Below are positions 16,821 to 20,984 of a stretch of DNA of 64,000 nt, in pieces. Location: positions 1 to 64,000 of the forward strand of contig JAOUJZ010000003.1 in NCBI GenBank assembly GCA_029882915.1, in the 5' to 3' direction. Source of the DNA: Gammaproteobacteria bacterium (lineage in GTDB: Bacteria; Pseudomonadota; Gammaproteobacteria; Nitrosococcales; Methylophagaceae). The notes under the pieces were generated by a model. It had not been told where the DNA came from. It saw only the letters and a program-made list of their open reading frames with translations, and did no database searches. Every line of letters starts with the position of its first letter. Position 1 is the stretch's first letter. The position numbers and the translations under genes were made by a program.

Positions 16821-16855
16821 AAAAAAAGCCCCGGCAGTGTTGCCGAGGCTTTTTT
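16821..16855 (-). terminator. Terminator of pqqA copy 1
   Basis: Read on the minus strand, AGCCTCGGCA and TGCCGGGGCT form a 10-bp stem around an ACAC loop, followed by a run of T. A C/A mismatch on the plus strand becomes a stable G-U pair in the minus-strand RNA, so the hairpin is designed for leftward transcription from pqqA. The same stem with different loops follows the other two pqqA genes. Confidence 0.88.
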
Positions 16856-16873
16856 GTTTATGCTAACTGCGTA

Positions 16874-16945
16874 TTAACGGTTGCAAATGTACATTGTTAC
16901 TTCGAAGCCGAAACGCATATCTGAATATTCTGGTTTAGTCCACAT
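16874..16945 (-). CDS. pqqA: PQQ precursor peptide PqqA, copy 1
   Basis: A 23-codon gene for the ribosomal peptide from which pyrroloquinoline quinone is made. It reads [12 protein letters not shown] at the start and EVTMYICNR at the end. The Glu and Tyr that PqqE cross-links and that become PQQ are E15 and Y19, in the required E-x3-Y spacing. A good ribosome site (GAGAGGA) lies 8 bases before the ATG, and the terminator begins 19 bp after the stop. It is one of three copies here with identical protein sequence; the coding DNA is identical to copy 2. No pqqB, C, D or E gene is in the window, so the peptide must be processed by enzymes encoded elsewhere. Confidence 0.93.
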
Positions 16946-17008
16946 GATCGTATTCCTCTCATTAGTGTTTAAATTATTGCCTGAAACAATTCCAAGCAGT
17001 TGATTAAC

Positions 17009-17073
17009 ATTTTAGTGATCTGGATCAAGATTAGAATCAGGGATCCCCTCTTTATTACTCAGGATTTTCCTGA
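17009..17073 (-). promoter_or_regulatory. pqqA promoter module, copy 1
   Basis: This 65-bp module recurs with identical internal spacing before all three pqqA genes. Reading toward pqqA it has a perfect palindrome TCAGGA-N3-TCCTGA (17073-17059), 30 bp, a TTGAT-N4-ATCAC dyad resembling an FNR/Anr box (17028-17015), then TAAAAT (17014-17009) as candidate -10, 63 bp before the ATG. The palindrome would sit near -64, a usual place for an activator. The dyad lies between -35 and -10. Which regulators bind is not known. Confidence 0.65.
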
Positions 17074-17266
17074 ACTGGTTAGCCGATGAGTATCATATGC
17101 TATGTAATTAGCAGACCTATGATTAACACCTTTTGATTTATGACTAATTGGCGATGATAAGTTTAGAATATTAGTGTTAGAATTTGAGACGATTATGTAT
17201 CTTGAATTTGAACTATAAAGCGTTAAAAATATCATGTATGTAGTGTAATGATCCTGGTTTTTAACC

Positions 17267-20068
17267 ATGAATAGCTTAAAAGACAGTAGTCAACTAGCAA
17301 AAATGAATTGGTTGCTGGCTACCCTTGCCACACTGTTTCTTATTGTTTGGTTAATGCCAACAATTAGTGTCATACAAGACGTTGTCATTATGTCACTGCC
17401 AACTCATATGTTTGCAGAGATATTTTCAGTTATTGTCTCCATGCTCGTTTTTGCACTTGTCTATAGTACACGTGCTGAAGATCGTCCTGGTAACCCAGTT
17501 ATTCTTGCTTGTGCATTTCTTGTTGTTGGTCTGGTGGATTTTGCACATACACTGTCCTACTATGGGATGCCTGTTTTCGTGACTCCGGGTAGTGCAGCCA
17601 AATCGATTTATTTCTGGTTGGTGGCGCGATATATTGCTGCTATTGCATTGCTGGTATCGGCAGTGCTGCTATGGAAACAAGTACTAAAACTACCTAACCG
17701 TTATTGGCTTTTGCTTGTAAGTCTTGTTCTTACAGTCGTTATATACTGGGTCGGGCTTTATCACCTTGATGTTTTTCCTGTCACCTTTATTGAAGGGCAG
17801 GGATTGACACCATTTAAGGTGATAGCAGAATACGGAATTATTTTAATCTTGTTAGTGCCTGCTATTCTTTTCTATCTACAGGCAAATAAATCCGAATTAT
17901 TTGATTCCAGTAGTATGTATGCAGCGACAGTGATAACCATACTAAGTGAACTATCATTTACTCTGTATTCAGATGTGTCTGATATCTTTAATTTACTTGG
18001 ACATACCTACAAGGTTATTGCTTACATTTTTATATTTAGAGCAATATTTTTGTTTGTTGTACGCGAACCTTATCAGAAACTTCATGAAAGTGAGCAATAC
18101 AACCGAACTTTGTTTGAAAGTTCTTCCATTGGTCTAGCAGTATGTCGGATGGATGGCACACTGATTGATCTTAACCAGTCCTATGCGGATATTATTGGCC
18201 GTAGCATTGAAGAAACCAAGCAATTAAGTTACTGGCAGATAACTCCTGAAGAGTATATGGAGCAGGAACAGTATCAGCTGGAGATGCTAGAAGACAAACA
18301 GTGTTATGGTCCTTACCAGAAGGAATATCTACATAAGGATGGACATCGTGTGCCGGTAAGACTCTCCGGCAGATTAATAGAAAGAGAGAATGAGGCCTTA
18401 ATCTGGTCCAGTGTTGAGAATATTTCAGATGAAGTTTTGGCTAATCGTGCTCGTGATGAATCAGAGCAGAATTTCAGACAGCTGGTTGAGCACATGCGAG
18501 AGGTTTTCTGGCTGACAGATGTCGACACCAATAGAGTGATTTATATTAGCCCAGCCTATGAGGTGGTCTGGGGAAGAAGTTGCGAGAGCCTCTATGCCGA
18601 GCCTACATCGTTCATAAAGGCTATTCATAACGATGATCGTGAACGAGTCAAACAATCAATTCTAAGACAAAAGGAAGGCAGTCGTAATGAAGAGTATCGT
18701 ATTGTTAAGTCCGACGGTACTGTTCGCTGGATAAAAGACCAGTCATTTCCAGTATTGAATCAGGAGGGTGTAGTTTATCGTGTTGCTGGCATAGCAGAAG
18801 ATATAACTGAAGAAAAATTTGCTCAAGAACTGCTCGAGCAGCGTGTTCAAGAACGTACAGAGTCGTTGTTTCAAAAAGAACGAGAACTTATTATTGCCAA
18901 GGAAGAAGCTGAACGTGCAAATCGAGCTAAATCTCAATTTCTATCCAGTATGAGTCATGAATTACGTACTCCTCTTAATGCGATTCTTGGTTTTTCACAG
19001 TTACTAGAGTTTGATCAGAACCTTAATAAAGATCAGCAAGACTCAATCAGATCCATACAGCATGGAGGCAGGCATCTACTACTACTGATTAATGAGGTTT
19101 TAGATCTTGAAAAAATTGAGACAGGTAAATATGAGATAAACATTGAGCAAGTTGATATACATGAAATTTTGATGGAATGTGTAGCTCTGTCTGAACCATT
19201 AATTACACAATATGAAGTGTTATTATCGCTTCACGCAGACAATCTGATTCAACCTTATGTCTCGGCTGATAAAACCAAGCTTAAACAAGTTATTCTTAAC
19301 CTGATTTCGAACGCTTGTAAGTATAACCATAGTGGTGGAACAGTTGATATTGAATGCATCAATACGAATGACCAAGGAATTCTTAGACTCTCCATTACAG
19401 ATAATGGTAATGGCATAGAAAAAGAACAACAGGCTAGTATTTTCGAACCTTTTAACCGCTTAGGTGCGGAGTTCGGCAGTATCGAAGGGACTGGGATAGG
19501 CCTGACTATAACGAAAGAATTAATTGAAATAATGGGCGGTAGCATTGGGTTTGAAAGTGAGCTGAAAAAGGGAAGCCGGTTTTGGATTGACCTGCTAACA
19601 TACAATTCAGATTTGAATGTGGACAAGTTAACAGATATGGAAGTTGAATCTGACCAGACTGTTTATAATCAAAATGATTTTAATTCGGGGCAGTATACAA
19701 TTCTCTACATTGAAGACAATTTAATGAATCTGAGTCTGGTTGAAACCATATTTAAAAAATATCGACCAAACTATAAGCTTATTAGTGCCATTAAACCAGA
19801 AGAAGGCATTGAACTTGCCTATGAGTTTAAGCCAGATTTAATATTACTTGATATTAATCTTCCAGAAATGGATGGTTATCAGGTTATGGAGAAATTAAGC
19901 ATTATGGAAGAGTGTAAAACTATTCCTGTGATCGCTGTTAGTGCTAATGCGATGAACACTGATCTTGAACGTGGTAAAAAATCTGGTTTCAAAGCATATG
20001 TAACAAAACCAATTGATATTGACGCTTTTTTAGACGTTATCAAGCAACAATTAGCTGATACCGTGTAA
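17267..20068 (+). CDS. MASE3/PAS hybrid sensor histidine kinase
   Basis: A 933-residue membrane sensor kinase. Residues about 15-265 hold seven or eight hydrophobic helices of the MASE3 type (RPGNPVILACAFLVVGLVDFAHTLSYYG is typical). Two PAS domains follow (about 275-395 and 400-515), then a short coiled coil and a HisKA domain with the phospho-acceptor His564 in SMSHELRTPL. The HATPase domain has NLISNACKYN and DNGNGIEKE, and a C-terminal receiver domain carries its phospho-acceptor Asp near residue 862 (LLLDINLPEMDG). No DNA-binding output is present, so it probably passes phosphate to a partner encoded elsewhere. It lies between pqqA copy 1 (divergent) and copy 2 (convergent), which hints at a link to PQQ or methanol metabolism, but this is inference. 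Confidence 0.9.
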   Translation: MNSLKDSSQLAKMNWLLATLATLFLIVWLMPTISVIQDVVIMSLPTHMFAEIFSVIVSMLVFALVYSTRAEDRPGNPVILACAFLVVGLVDFAHTLSYYGMPVFVTPGSAAKSIYFWLVARYIAAIALLVSAVLLWKQVLKLPNRYWLLLVSLVLTVVIYWVGLYHLDVFPVTFIEGQGLTPFKVIAEYGIILILLVPAILFYLQANKSELFDSSSMYAATVITILSELSFTLYSDVSDIFNLLGHTYKVIAYIFIFRAIFLFVVREPYQKLHESEQYNRTLFESSSIGLAVCRMDGTLIDLNQSYADIIGRSIEETKQLSYWQITPEEYMEQEQYQLEMLEDKQCYGPYQKEYLHKDGHRVPVRLSGRLIERENEALIWSSVENISDEVLANRARDESEQNFRQLVEHMREVFWLTDVDTNRVIYISPAYEVVWGRSCESLYAEPTSFIKAIHNDDRERVKQSILRQKEGSRNEEYRIVKSDGTVRWIKDQSFPVLNQEGVVYRVAGIAEDITEEKFAQELLEQRVQERTESLFQKERELIIAKEEAERANRAKSQFLSSMSHELRTPLNAILGFSQLLEFDQNLNKDQQDSIRSIQHGGRHLLLLINEVLDLEKIETGKYEINIEQVDIHEILMECVALSEPLITQYEVLLSLHADNLIQPYVSADKTKLKQVILNLISNACKYNHSGGTVDIECINTNDQGILRLSITDNGNGIEKEQQASIFEPFNRLGAEFGSIEGTGIGLTITKELIEIMGGSIGFESELKKGSRFWIDLLTYNSDLNVDKLTDMEVESDQTVYNQNDFNSGQYTILYIEDNLMNLSLVETIFKKYRPNYKLISAIKPEEGIELAYEFKPDLILLDINLPEMDGYQVMEKLSIMEECKTIPVIAVSANAMNTDLERGKKSGFKAYVTKPIDIDAFLDVIKQQLADTV

Positions 20069-20127
20069 CTCATATTGTTTTGGAGTTCATACACTGACAA
20101 TTAGACAGAAAATCATAATACTTAAGT

Positions 20128-20161
20128 AAAAAAAAGCCCCGGCAGTTGCCGAGGCTTTTTT
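20128..20161 (-). terminator. Terminator of pqqA copy 2
   Basis: The same stem as at copy 1 (GCCTCGGCA pairing with TGCCGGGGC in the minus-strand RNA), but with a shorter loop, followed by T residues. A-runs and T-runs flank it on both sides, so it may also stop the rightward kinase transcript that ends at 20068. Confidence 0.85.
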
Positions 20162-20179
20162 GTTTATGCTAACTGTGTA

Positions 20180-20251
20180 TTAACGGTTGCAAATGTACAT
20201 TGTTACTTCGAAGCCGAAACGCATATCTGAATATTCTGGTTTAGTCCACAT
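20180..20251 (-). CDS. pqqA: PQQ precursor peptide PqqA, copy 2
   Basis: A second 23-codon pqqA, identical base for base to copy 1 over the whole coding region and still close to it downstream to the terminator, but diverged upstream except in the promoter module. The E15-x3-Y19 pair is intact. GAGAGGA lies 7 bases before the ATG. The identity of coding DNA with copy 1, across 3.2 kb holding the kinase, points to a recent duplication or gene conversion. Confidence 0.93.
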   Translation of the reverse strand: MWTKPEYSDMRFGFEVTMYICNR

Positions 20252-20310
20252 GATCGTATCCTCTCATTAATGTTTTATGGTTGCTTAAATGTTTCAAGCA
20301 GGTGAGATAC

Positions 20311-20375
20311 ATAATACTGATTTAGATCAAGAATAAAATCAGGGATCTTCTTTTTATCACTCAGGATTTTCCTTA
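20311..20375 (-). promoter_or_regulatory. pqqA promoter module, copy 2
   Basis: The same 65-bp layout as copy 1: a near-perfect palindrome (20375-20361, one mismatch), 30 bp, TTGAT-N4-ATCAG (20330-20317), and TATTAT (20316-20311) as candidate -10, 59 bp before the ATG. The palindrome contains the stop codon of the broken DUF3175 gene, so the module starts exactly where that gene is cut off. Confidence 0.65.
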
Positions 20376-20609
20376 GTGACTGGATTCGGCTCGATTGATA
20401 TAGCACACCAACATCGACATGGCCGATCGAAAGGGTTTTACTTTTCGTCGCTGGTTGCTATCCGCAGACATTTTTAATGAACGGGCAATTATTTTTGGAT
20501 CTTTCCAGGTAAAAACACCGTGTTCAATATCCAGAGCATGGCTGTCACGTGTGACTTCCGCCGACCAGTTGTTTTGTTGTAAAGCGTTAGTTTTTGATGG
20601 TATTGCTCC
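20373..20609 (-). pseudogene. DUF3175 protein remnant
   Basis: The minus strand has an open frame of 78 codons that matches the conserved body of DUF3175 proteins. It includes WSAEVTRDSHALDIEHGVFT, DPKIIARSLKMSAD, and a final RRKVKPFRSAMSMLVCYINRA. It has no start codon: a TAG at 20612-20610 closes the frame with no ATG, GTG or TTG before the conserved part. It also stops after INRAESSH, about 30 residues short of the usual C-terminus. The stop lies inside the promoter module of pqqA copy 2. The simplest reading is a gene broken when the pqqA cassette was duplicated next to it. The function of DUF3175 is not known. Confidence 0.75.
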
Positions 20610-20729
20610 CTATAGCAGTGGTAGCGCTTCAGAGGTAATTAAATCATTATCGGTTTTTATTCTATCAACAAGAGAATGGGTATGTATGAGTTTGAATAAT
20701 TACAAGAGGACTGCACAAAGTCCAAATAC

Positions 20730-20766
20730 AAAAAAGCCCCGGCGGATGAGGTTGCCGAGGCTTTTT
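20730..20766 (-). terminator. Terminator of pqqA copy 3
   Basis: GCCTCGGC and GCCGGGGC form the same stem as at copies 1 and 2, here with a longer 10-base loop, followed by T residues on the minus strand. Stem sequence is kept across all three copies while the loop varies. Confidence 0.85.
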
Positions 20767-20786
20767 CTTTACGCTAACAGTTTTGA

Positions 20787-20858
20787 TTAACGGTTGCAGA
20801 TGTACATTGTTACTTCAAAGCCGAAACGCATATCTGAATATTCTGGTTTAGTCCACAT
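20787..20858 (-). CDS. pqqA: PQQ precursor peptide PqqA, copy 3
   Basis: The third 23-codon pqqA. It differs from copies 1 and 2 at two bases only, both silent (TTT for TTC at Phe14 and ATC for ATT at Ile20), so all three peptides are identical. E15 and Y19 are intact and GAGAGGA lies 7 bases before the ATG. Its flanks are more diverged than those of copies 1 and 2, so it is probably the oldest branch. Its transcript would end at the terminator at 20766-20730, before the DUF3175 remnant. Confidence 0.93.
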   Translation of the reverse strand: MWTKPEYSDMRFGFEVTMYICNR

Positions 20859-20919
20859 GATCGTATCCTCTCATTAGTGATTGAATATAAGACTGGAATT
20901 TCCCCAGTCAGTGATTCAC

Positions 20920-20984
20920 ATTATAGACATCTCCATCAAGAGGAATATCAGAGAACCGCTATTTAATGGTCAGGATTTTGCTGA
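20920..20984 (-). promoter_or_regulatory. pqqA promoter module, copy 3
   Basis: The same 65-bp layout: palindrome with one mismatch (20984-20970), 30 bp, TTGAT-N4-ATGTC (20939-20926, second half degenerate), and a consensus TATAAT (20925-20920), 61 bp before the ATG. The FNR-like dyad is weakest here while the -10 is best, so regulation of this copy may differ. Confidence 0.6.

Follow-up and report, generated by a model that had tools for sequence, protein, structure and literature searches.

Three pqqA genes in one stretch of DNA share an operator that, judged from sequence, is almost exclusive to pqqA. The window analyzed here is a 64-kb stretch, contig C62 of a draft genome (MAG; 1.94 Mb, 90% complete) of a marine-type bacterium that uses methanol, and three of its units are genuine pqqA genes under selection. 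We favor, at a probability of roughly 0.7, the reading that these units are mini-operons that provide extra precursor for a single pqqBCDE set and form one regulon under a regulator encoded on contig C58 of the same genome. Within this reading the genes, the cassettes, the specificity of the operator, co-occurrence and selection are matters of observation. Methylotrophs with several pqqA, solo ones among them, have been described before; what is new is a pqqA-specific operator common to the copies, together with a candidate regulator. One 15-bp site and one candidate regulator offer a testable regulatory handle on PQQ supply in Methylophaga, cultured species included, and short precursor-peptide genes become findable through their operator as well as through their coding sequence.

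Three pqqA Genes in Separate Cassettes

The window has three 72-bp ORFs on its minus strand, and all of them specify one and the same 23-aa PqqA peptide. Each scores 42.1 bits against the Pfam PqqA model PF08042 (cut-off 21.1, E 3e-10 for the genome; 5/5 copies), and the ExxxY motif is present as Glu15 and Tyr19 (EVTMY), the glutamate and tyrosine of this motif being the residues that become PQQ. ORFs, PF08042 and ExxxY thus uphold what a preliminary description had proposed, namely three 23-codon pqqA genes encoding one peptide with both residues. The coding DNA of copies 1 and 2 is identical over the gene, and that of copy 3 has two silent changes. The features are as follows:

16822..16855, minus strand: rho-independent terminator of copy 1 (15-pair stem; -23.1 kcal/mol, z -7.9)
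16874..16945, minus strand: pqqA copy 1, 23-aa precursor peptide (ORF; PF08042 42.1 bits; ExxxY)
17001..17073, minus strand: promoter/operator module of copy 1, with site 1, second site and -10-like element (profile R1, 47.7 bits, E 3.3e-12, own genome)
17059..17073, minus strand: operator site 1 of copy 1, TCAGGAAAATCCTGA, 128 bp 5′ of the ATG (exact match; rank 2 in the window with the own-genome-free matrix)
17267..20068, plus strand: hybrid histidine kinase MASE3-PAS-PAS-HisKA-HATPase-REC, between copies 1 and 2 (Pfam)
20128..20162, minus strand: terminator of copy 2 (-22.0 kcal/mol, z -6.8)
20180..20251, minus strand: pqqA copy 2 (ORF; PF08042 42.1 bits)
20303..20375, minus strand: promoter/operator module of copy 2, site 1 at 20361-20375 (profile R1, 46.8 bits, E 6.2e-12)
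20730..20768, minus strand: terminator of copy 3 (-21.4 kcal/mol, z -4.5)
20787..20858, minus strand: pqqA copy 3 (ORF; PF08042 42.1 bits; two silent differences from copies 1 and 2)
20911..20984, minus strand: promoter/operator module of copy 3, site 1 at 20970-20984 (profile R1, 35.9 bits, E 1.5e-8)

A unit of about 250 bp is repeated three times, with similarity spanning the upstream motif through the terminator. On the gene and terminator side, 115 nt are 99% and 78% identical between units (99% for copies 1 and 2), and on the upstream side 82 nt are 80% and 71% identical. A strong hairpin with a U tract follows each window pqqA, with folding energies unmatched by shuffles. The repeated unit, the operator/promoter blocks and the terminator folds agree with the earlier claim of separate promoter–gene–terminator units of this size. 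A standard sigma-70 scan gave a lower count of promoter-like sites than shuffled sequence did, with none at the -10-like element of the cassettes, which fits their missing -35 box.

Other features of the window were considered for a part in control. Riboswitch control of the window cassettes was rejected after an Rfam search gave no match at gathering level; the weak sRNA and leader matches of a relaxed search lie mostly on the terminator hairpins, all below the family gathering score. The full-length MASE3 hybrid kinase was rejected as a regulator of pqqA because it is absent from nearly all members of the genus that have the operator: at E ≤ 1e-100, it has no counterpart in 27/28 other genus genomes. 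It is probably a neighbor and not part of the pqqA system, its gene having probably been acquired at its place between copies 1 and 2. An FNR/Dnr-like sequence, TTGATNNNNATCA, lies at 17016-17028 and 20318-20330 (minus strand), just 5′ of the -10 of copies 1 and 2; it occurs seven times in the window versus 1.6 expected.

Genomic Context

No pqqE was found on the contig of the window. The pqqBCDE genes lie instead on C58, in the order SoxY-SoxZ-sensor kinase-response regulator-pqqA-pqqA-pqqB-pqqC-pqqD-pqqE-ABC transporter, with pqqB, C, D and E each above their NCBIfam equivalog cut-offs behind two more pqqA, for a total of five pqqA in the genome. The statement that pqqBCDE does not adjoin the window copies is therefore correct, and the label "orphan" first given to them holds locally and fails at the level of the genome, which has a complete pqqABCDE locus with two further pqqA. 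The search of the whole genome also excludes a lack of pqqBCDE, a case that the preliminary description had raised, so the solo genes have a pathway to feed. Two PQQ-dependent alcohol dehydrogenase candidates match TIGR03075, one on C85 over the cut-off (716 bits) and one on C30 under it (453 bits). Besides one full-length pqqE, the genome has part of a second one, divergent in sequence and cut off by an end of contig C47 (locus L065, 9895-10392).

Response regulators 82–90% identical lie on related contigs mostly named Methylophaga or Methylophagaceae/Piscirickettsiaceae, which places the host in or next to Methylophaga; the arrangement of the main locus is the same in the named species among these contigs. 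Among other genomes of the genus, 15/24 have two to nine pqqA copies and 9/24 have none, the latter also being without PQQ alcohol dehydrogenases and without the regulator orthologue.

A Shared Bipartite Operator

Nearly every pqqA copy of the genus, including 5/5 in the own genome, is preceded by a bipartite operator. In aligned upstream regions, site 1 is a 15-bp near-palindrome, TnAGGAAAATCCTGA, about 104–137 bp before the pqqA ATG, and a second half-site follows about 22 bp past it, reading TTTTCCTCTAAC, TATTCCTGACGTAA or ATCCCTGAT depending on the class of the copy. These regions also have a -10-like element, GTATAnT, and no recognizable -35 box. Placed from the -10-like element, the two sites would be centered near -64 and -39, a placement that would suit an activator standing in for the -35 element.

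Several searches point to specificity for pqqA. Site 1 with at most three mismatches is found at 94% of 53 copies versus 0.25% in shuffles, and the 64-kb window has three occurrences of the upstream element TNAGNAAAATCCTGA, each at a pqqA gene, versus 0.00 expected. With a 45-bp matrix trained without any sequence of the own genome, the three cassette sites are the top hits in the window (34.8, 34.3 and 12.9; next -0.5), and together with the two C58 pqqA sites they come first by a wide margin. A profile of 75 positions matches only the five pqqA of the own genome (E ≤ 1.5e-8; next E 0.1). Across 29 genus genomes, among them G040–G043, which were outside training, 59/59 matches at E ≤ 1e-3 and 65/70 at E ≤ 0.02 are at pqqA, counting one in G041 (C261:27-98) that was assigned by its position behind two others, on a contig that ends before the gene. 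The five weak matches elsewhere comprise one in a coding frame, three with no pqqA after them, and one, on G002 C268, that looks like a real module and runs to the contig end. Class-wide, the profile finds the module in 3/369 genomes: the own genome, one of another genus of the same family with both matches at pqqA, and one with a weak match without pqqA. Site 1 is also present at pqqA of the cultured M. thiooxydans, M. lonarensis, M. aminisulfidivorans and M. sulfidovorans. An exact copy of the motif on C30 was discarded as an operator since it sits inside a kinase coding sequence.

A Candidate Regulator Adjoining pqqA

The response regulator of C58 is of the NarL/FixJ type, with REC and GerE (LuxR) domains; it adjoins pqqA and has its kinase partner, a PAS-HAMP sensor kinase, beside it. 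Its best NCBIfam model, UvrY/SirA/GacA, scores below the cut-off. Orthologues (at least 83% identity) are present in 18 genus genomes, all 18 with the operator module. Two further genomes combine the operator with a missing or incomplete orthologue: in G043 the contig starts inside the regulator gene (the 4,085-bp contig that also carries locus L148), and in G040 (82% complete) we found the module and pqqA and no regulator orthologue. Neighborhood and co-occurrence make this regulator the most likely activator at the pqqA operator, which is good circumstantial evidence for the link, as distinct from proof of binding. Counting against the link, the regulator is co-inherited with pqqA and pqqBCDE.

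The operator could instead be read by a different regulator, for example an additional NarL-type protein or an activator of some unrelated kind, as the presence of several NarL-type paralogues per genome would allow (38–53% identical, in the same genus genomes). We consider this rather unlikely, given that the regulator orthologue is missing along with pqqA from the nine pqqA-less genomes and that the motif lies beside homologous regulator genes in other families: at Porticoccaceae loci (regulators 71 and 76% identical), in one of which it precedes pqqA, and at a Mariprofundaceae locus (49% identical). No motif was found near the regulators of Thiotrichaceae/Beggiatoa-type loci (56–57% identical).

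Two arrangements outside the genus are of note. At the Mariprofundaceae locus (L146, 5647-5677) the operator is flanked by the response regulator on one side and, on the other, by a large gene whose predicted product is a membrane sensor protein, a position that hints at a different target there. In UBA652 (L138, 8920-10500), a second kinase-regulator pair comes after the same SoxYZ-kinase-regulator cluster, and with it a PQQ-dependent-dehydrogenase-like gene; no pqqA was found in the stretch examined.

Function and Origin of the Solo Cassettes

Each PQQ made uses up one PqqA, whereas the enzymes work repeatedly, so extra pqqA would raise precursor supply without more enzyme. We propose that each unit is an independently transcribed mini-operon of operator, promoter, ribosome site, pqqA and terminator, and that the three units would supply additional PqqA to the one pqqBCDE set, that of C58. 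The same operator with its two sites would control all five copies from a position typical of activator sites, 5′ of and overlapping the -35 region, and the activator would be the NarL/FixJ-type regulator with its PAS-HAMP sensor kinase, encoded directly 5′ of pqqA on C58. With one activator encoded beside the C58 pqqA, the scattered copies would act as a single regulon whose only clear target is pqqA. Transcription, regulator binding, the signal and the effect on the amount of PQQ are the parts of this mechanism that we infer, and the extra copies may raise PQQ flux. Some may contribute little, since one copy is reported to be able to dominate (Ge et al. 2015, cited in PMC6520949).

Selection and phylogeny bear on what the copies do. 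Across 52 genus copies the peptide is invariant except for K/T4 and one S8A, and silent substitutions dominate (pS 0.33, pN 0.009, pN/pS 0.026), indicating that the copies are selected as peptides. In a tree of cassettes, pqqB-adjacent copies form one clade (100/100), and the three of the window group together (100/99) inside a separate solo clade (97/94), which also holds copies from four other species. Solo cassettes, of which G007 has six, thus seem to represent an ancient lineage that underwent separate expansions in different species; the genes flanking them are mostly not common to different species.

One alternative is that local duplication produced the extra copies as evolutionary by-products that matter little functionally, gene conversion having kept them alike; this would account for the 99% identity of copies 1 and 2 over 115 nt and for the grouping of the window's three. 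It is improbable in view of the low pN/pS across the genus, the preservation of operator, gene and terminator between differing flanks, and the recurrence of solo cassettes in several species. More credible, if on balance still doubtful, is that solo copies serve condition-specific expression instead of dosage, with promoter classes that differ by location. The tree separates pqqB-adjacent copies from the solo clade, the second operator site varies by class, and an FNR-like TTGATNNNNATCA stands beside the -10 in copies 1 and 2 alone. Copies responding differently are reported by Ge et al. 2015 (PMC6520949), and solo and operon copies of Hyphomicrobium differ in expression (PMC9851590). However, site 1 and its spacing are common to all classes, which argues for one common input, and the FNR-like box is not conserved in pqqA promoters of other species. 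Returning to supply by mini-operons under one regulator, a broader proposal, tentative and a little short of even odds, is that the genome-wide regulon of a two-component regulator consists of one 23-codon gene in many dispersed copies, that copy number scales a consumed ribosomal precursor peptide under one switch, and that the solo cassettes are an old lineage of their own that spread between loci in Methylophaga.

Comparison with Known Systems

In the literature searched, with most subscription journals outside its scope, we found no account of multi-copy pqqA in Methylophaga, nor any of this operator. The likeness to multi-copy pqqA of methylotrophs that the preliminary description had drawn is well founded, with five pqqA and one full pqqBCDE set here and published cases in Methylophilaceae, Methylovorus and Hyphomicrobium. 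Methylophilaceae have 3–12 pqqA per genome (PMC4109929), and Methylovorus sp. MP688 has multiple pqqA, one of which is reported to dominate PQQ synthesis (Ge et al. 2015, cited in PMC6520949). Like the genome studied here, these have several pqqA per pqqBCDE set in the same biosynthetic role; they belong to another bacterial lineage, and a shared operator is not among the features described in the text consulted. Three pqqA copies are also reported for Beijerinckiaceae RH AL1 (PMC10848612).

On the regulatory side, Pseudomonas AgmR/ErbR, a LuxR-type activator of pqq genes (PMC12997753), is alike in kind, as a LuxR-type response regulator linked to pqq transcription, the likeness being one of type only; P. 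putida KT2440 differs in being listed with one pqqA, in the pqq operon (PMC12997753). In Methylophaga nitratireducenticrescens GP59, a c-di-GMP riboswitch flanks a pqqA (PMC12530212), a likeness in that pqqA of Methylophaga is under extra control; unlike in GP59, neither the window nor the C58 locus has a riboswitch match at gathering level.

The closest layout is that of Hyphomicrobium denitrificans FJNU strains, whose five pqqA, with expression data, comprise pqqABCDE, pqqADE and three solo genes (PMC9851590). This layout is almost the same as here: one copy in the operon, three solo pqqA and, besides, a second cluster of the pqqADE type; H. denitrificans is an Alphaproteobacterium, and the comparison concerns gene layout, not operator or regulator. 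In two relatives (loci L187 and L077), a divergent pqqA with an EVTAY motif lies 5′ of a further gene, PqqD-like in L187, an arrangement that resembles the pqqADE clusters of other methylotrophs, and the L187 copy carries the operator.
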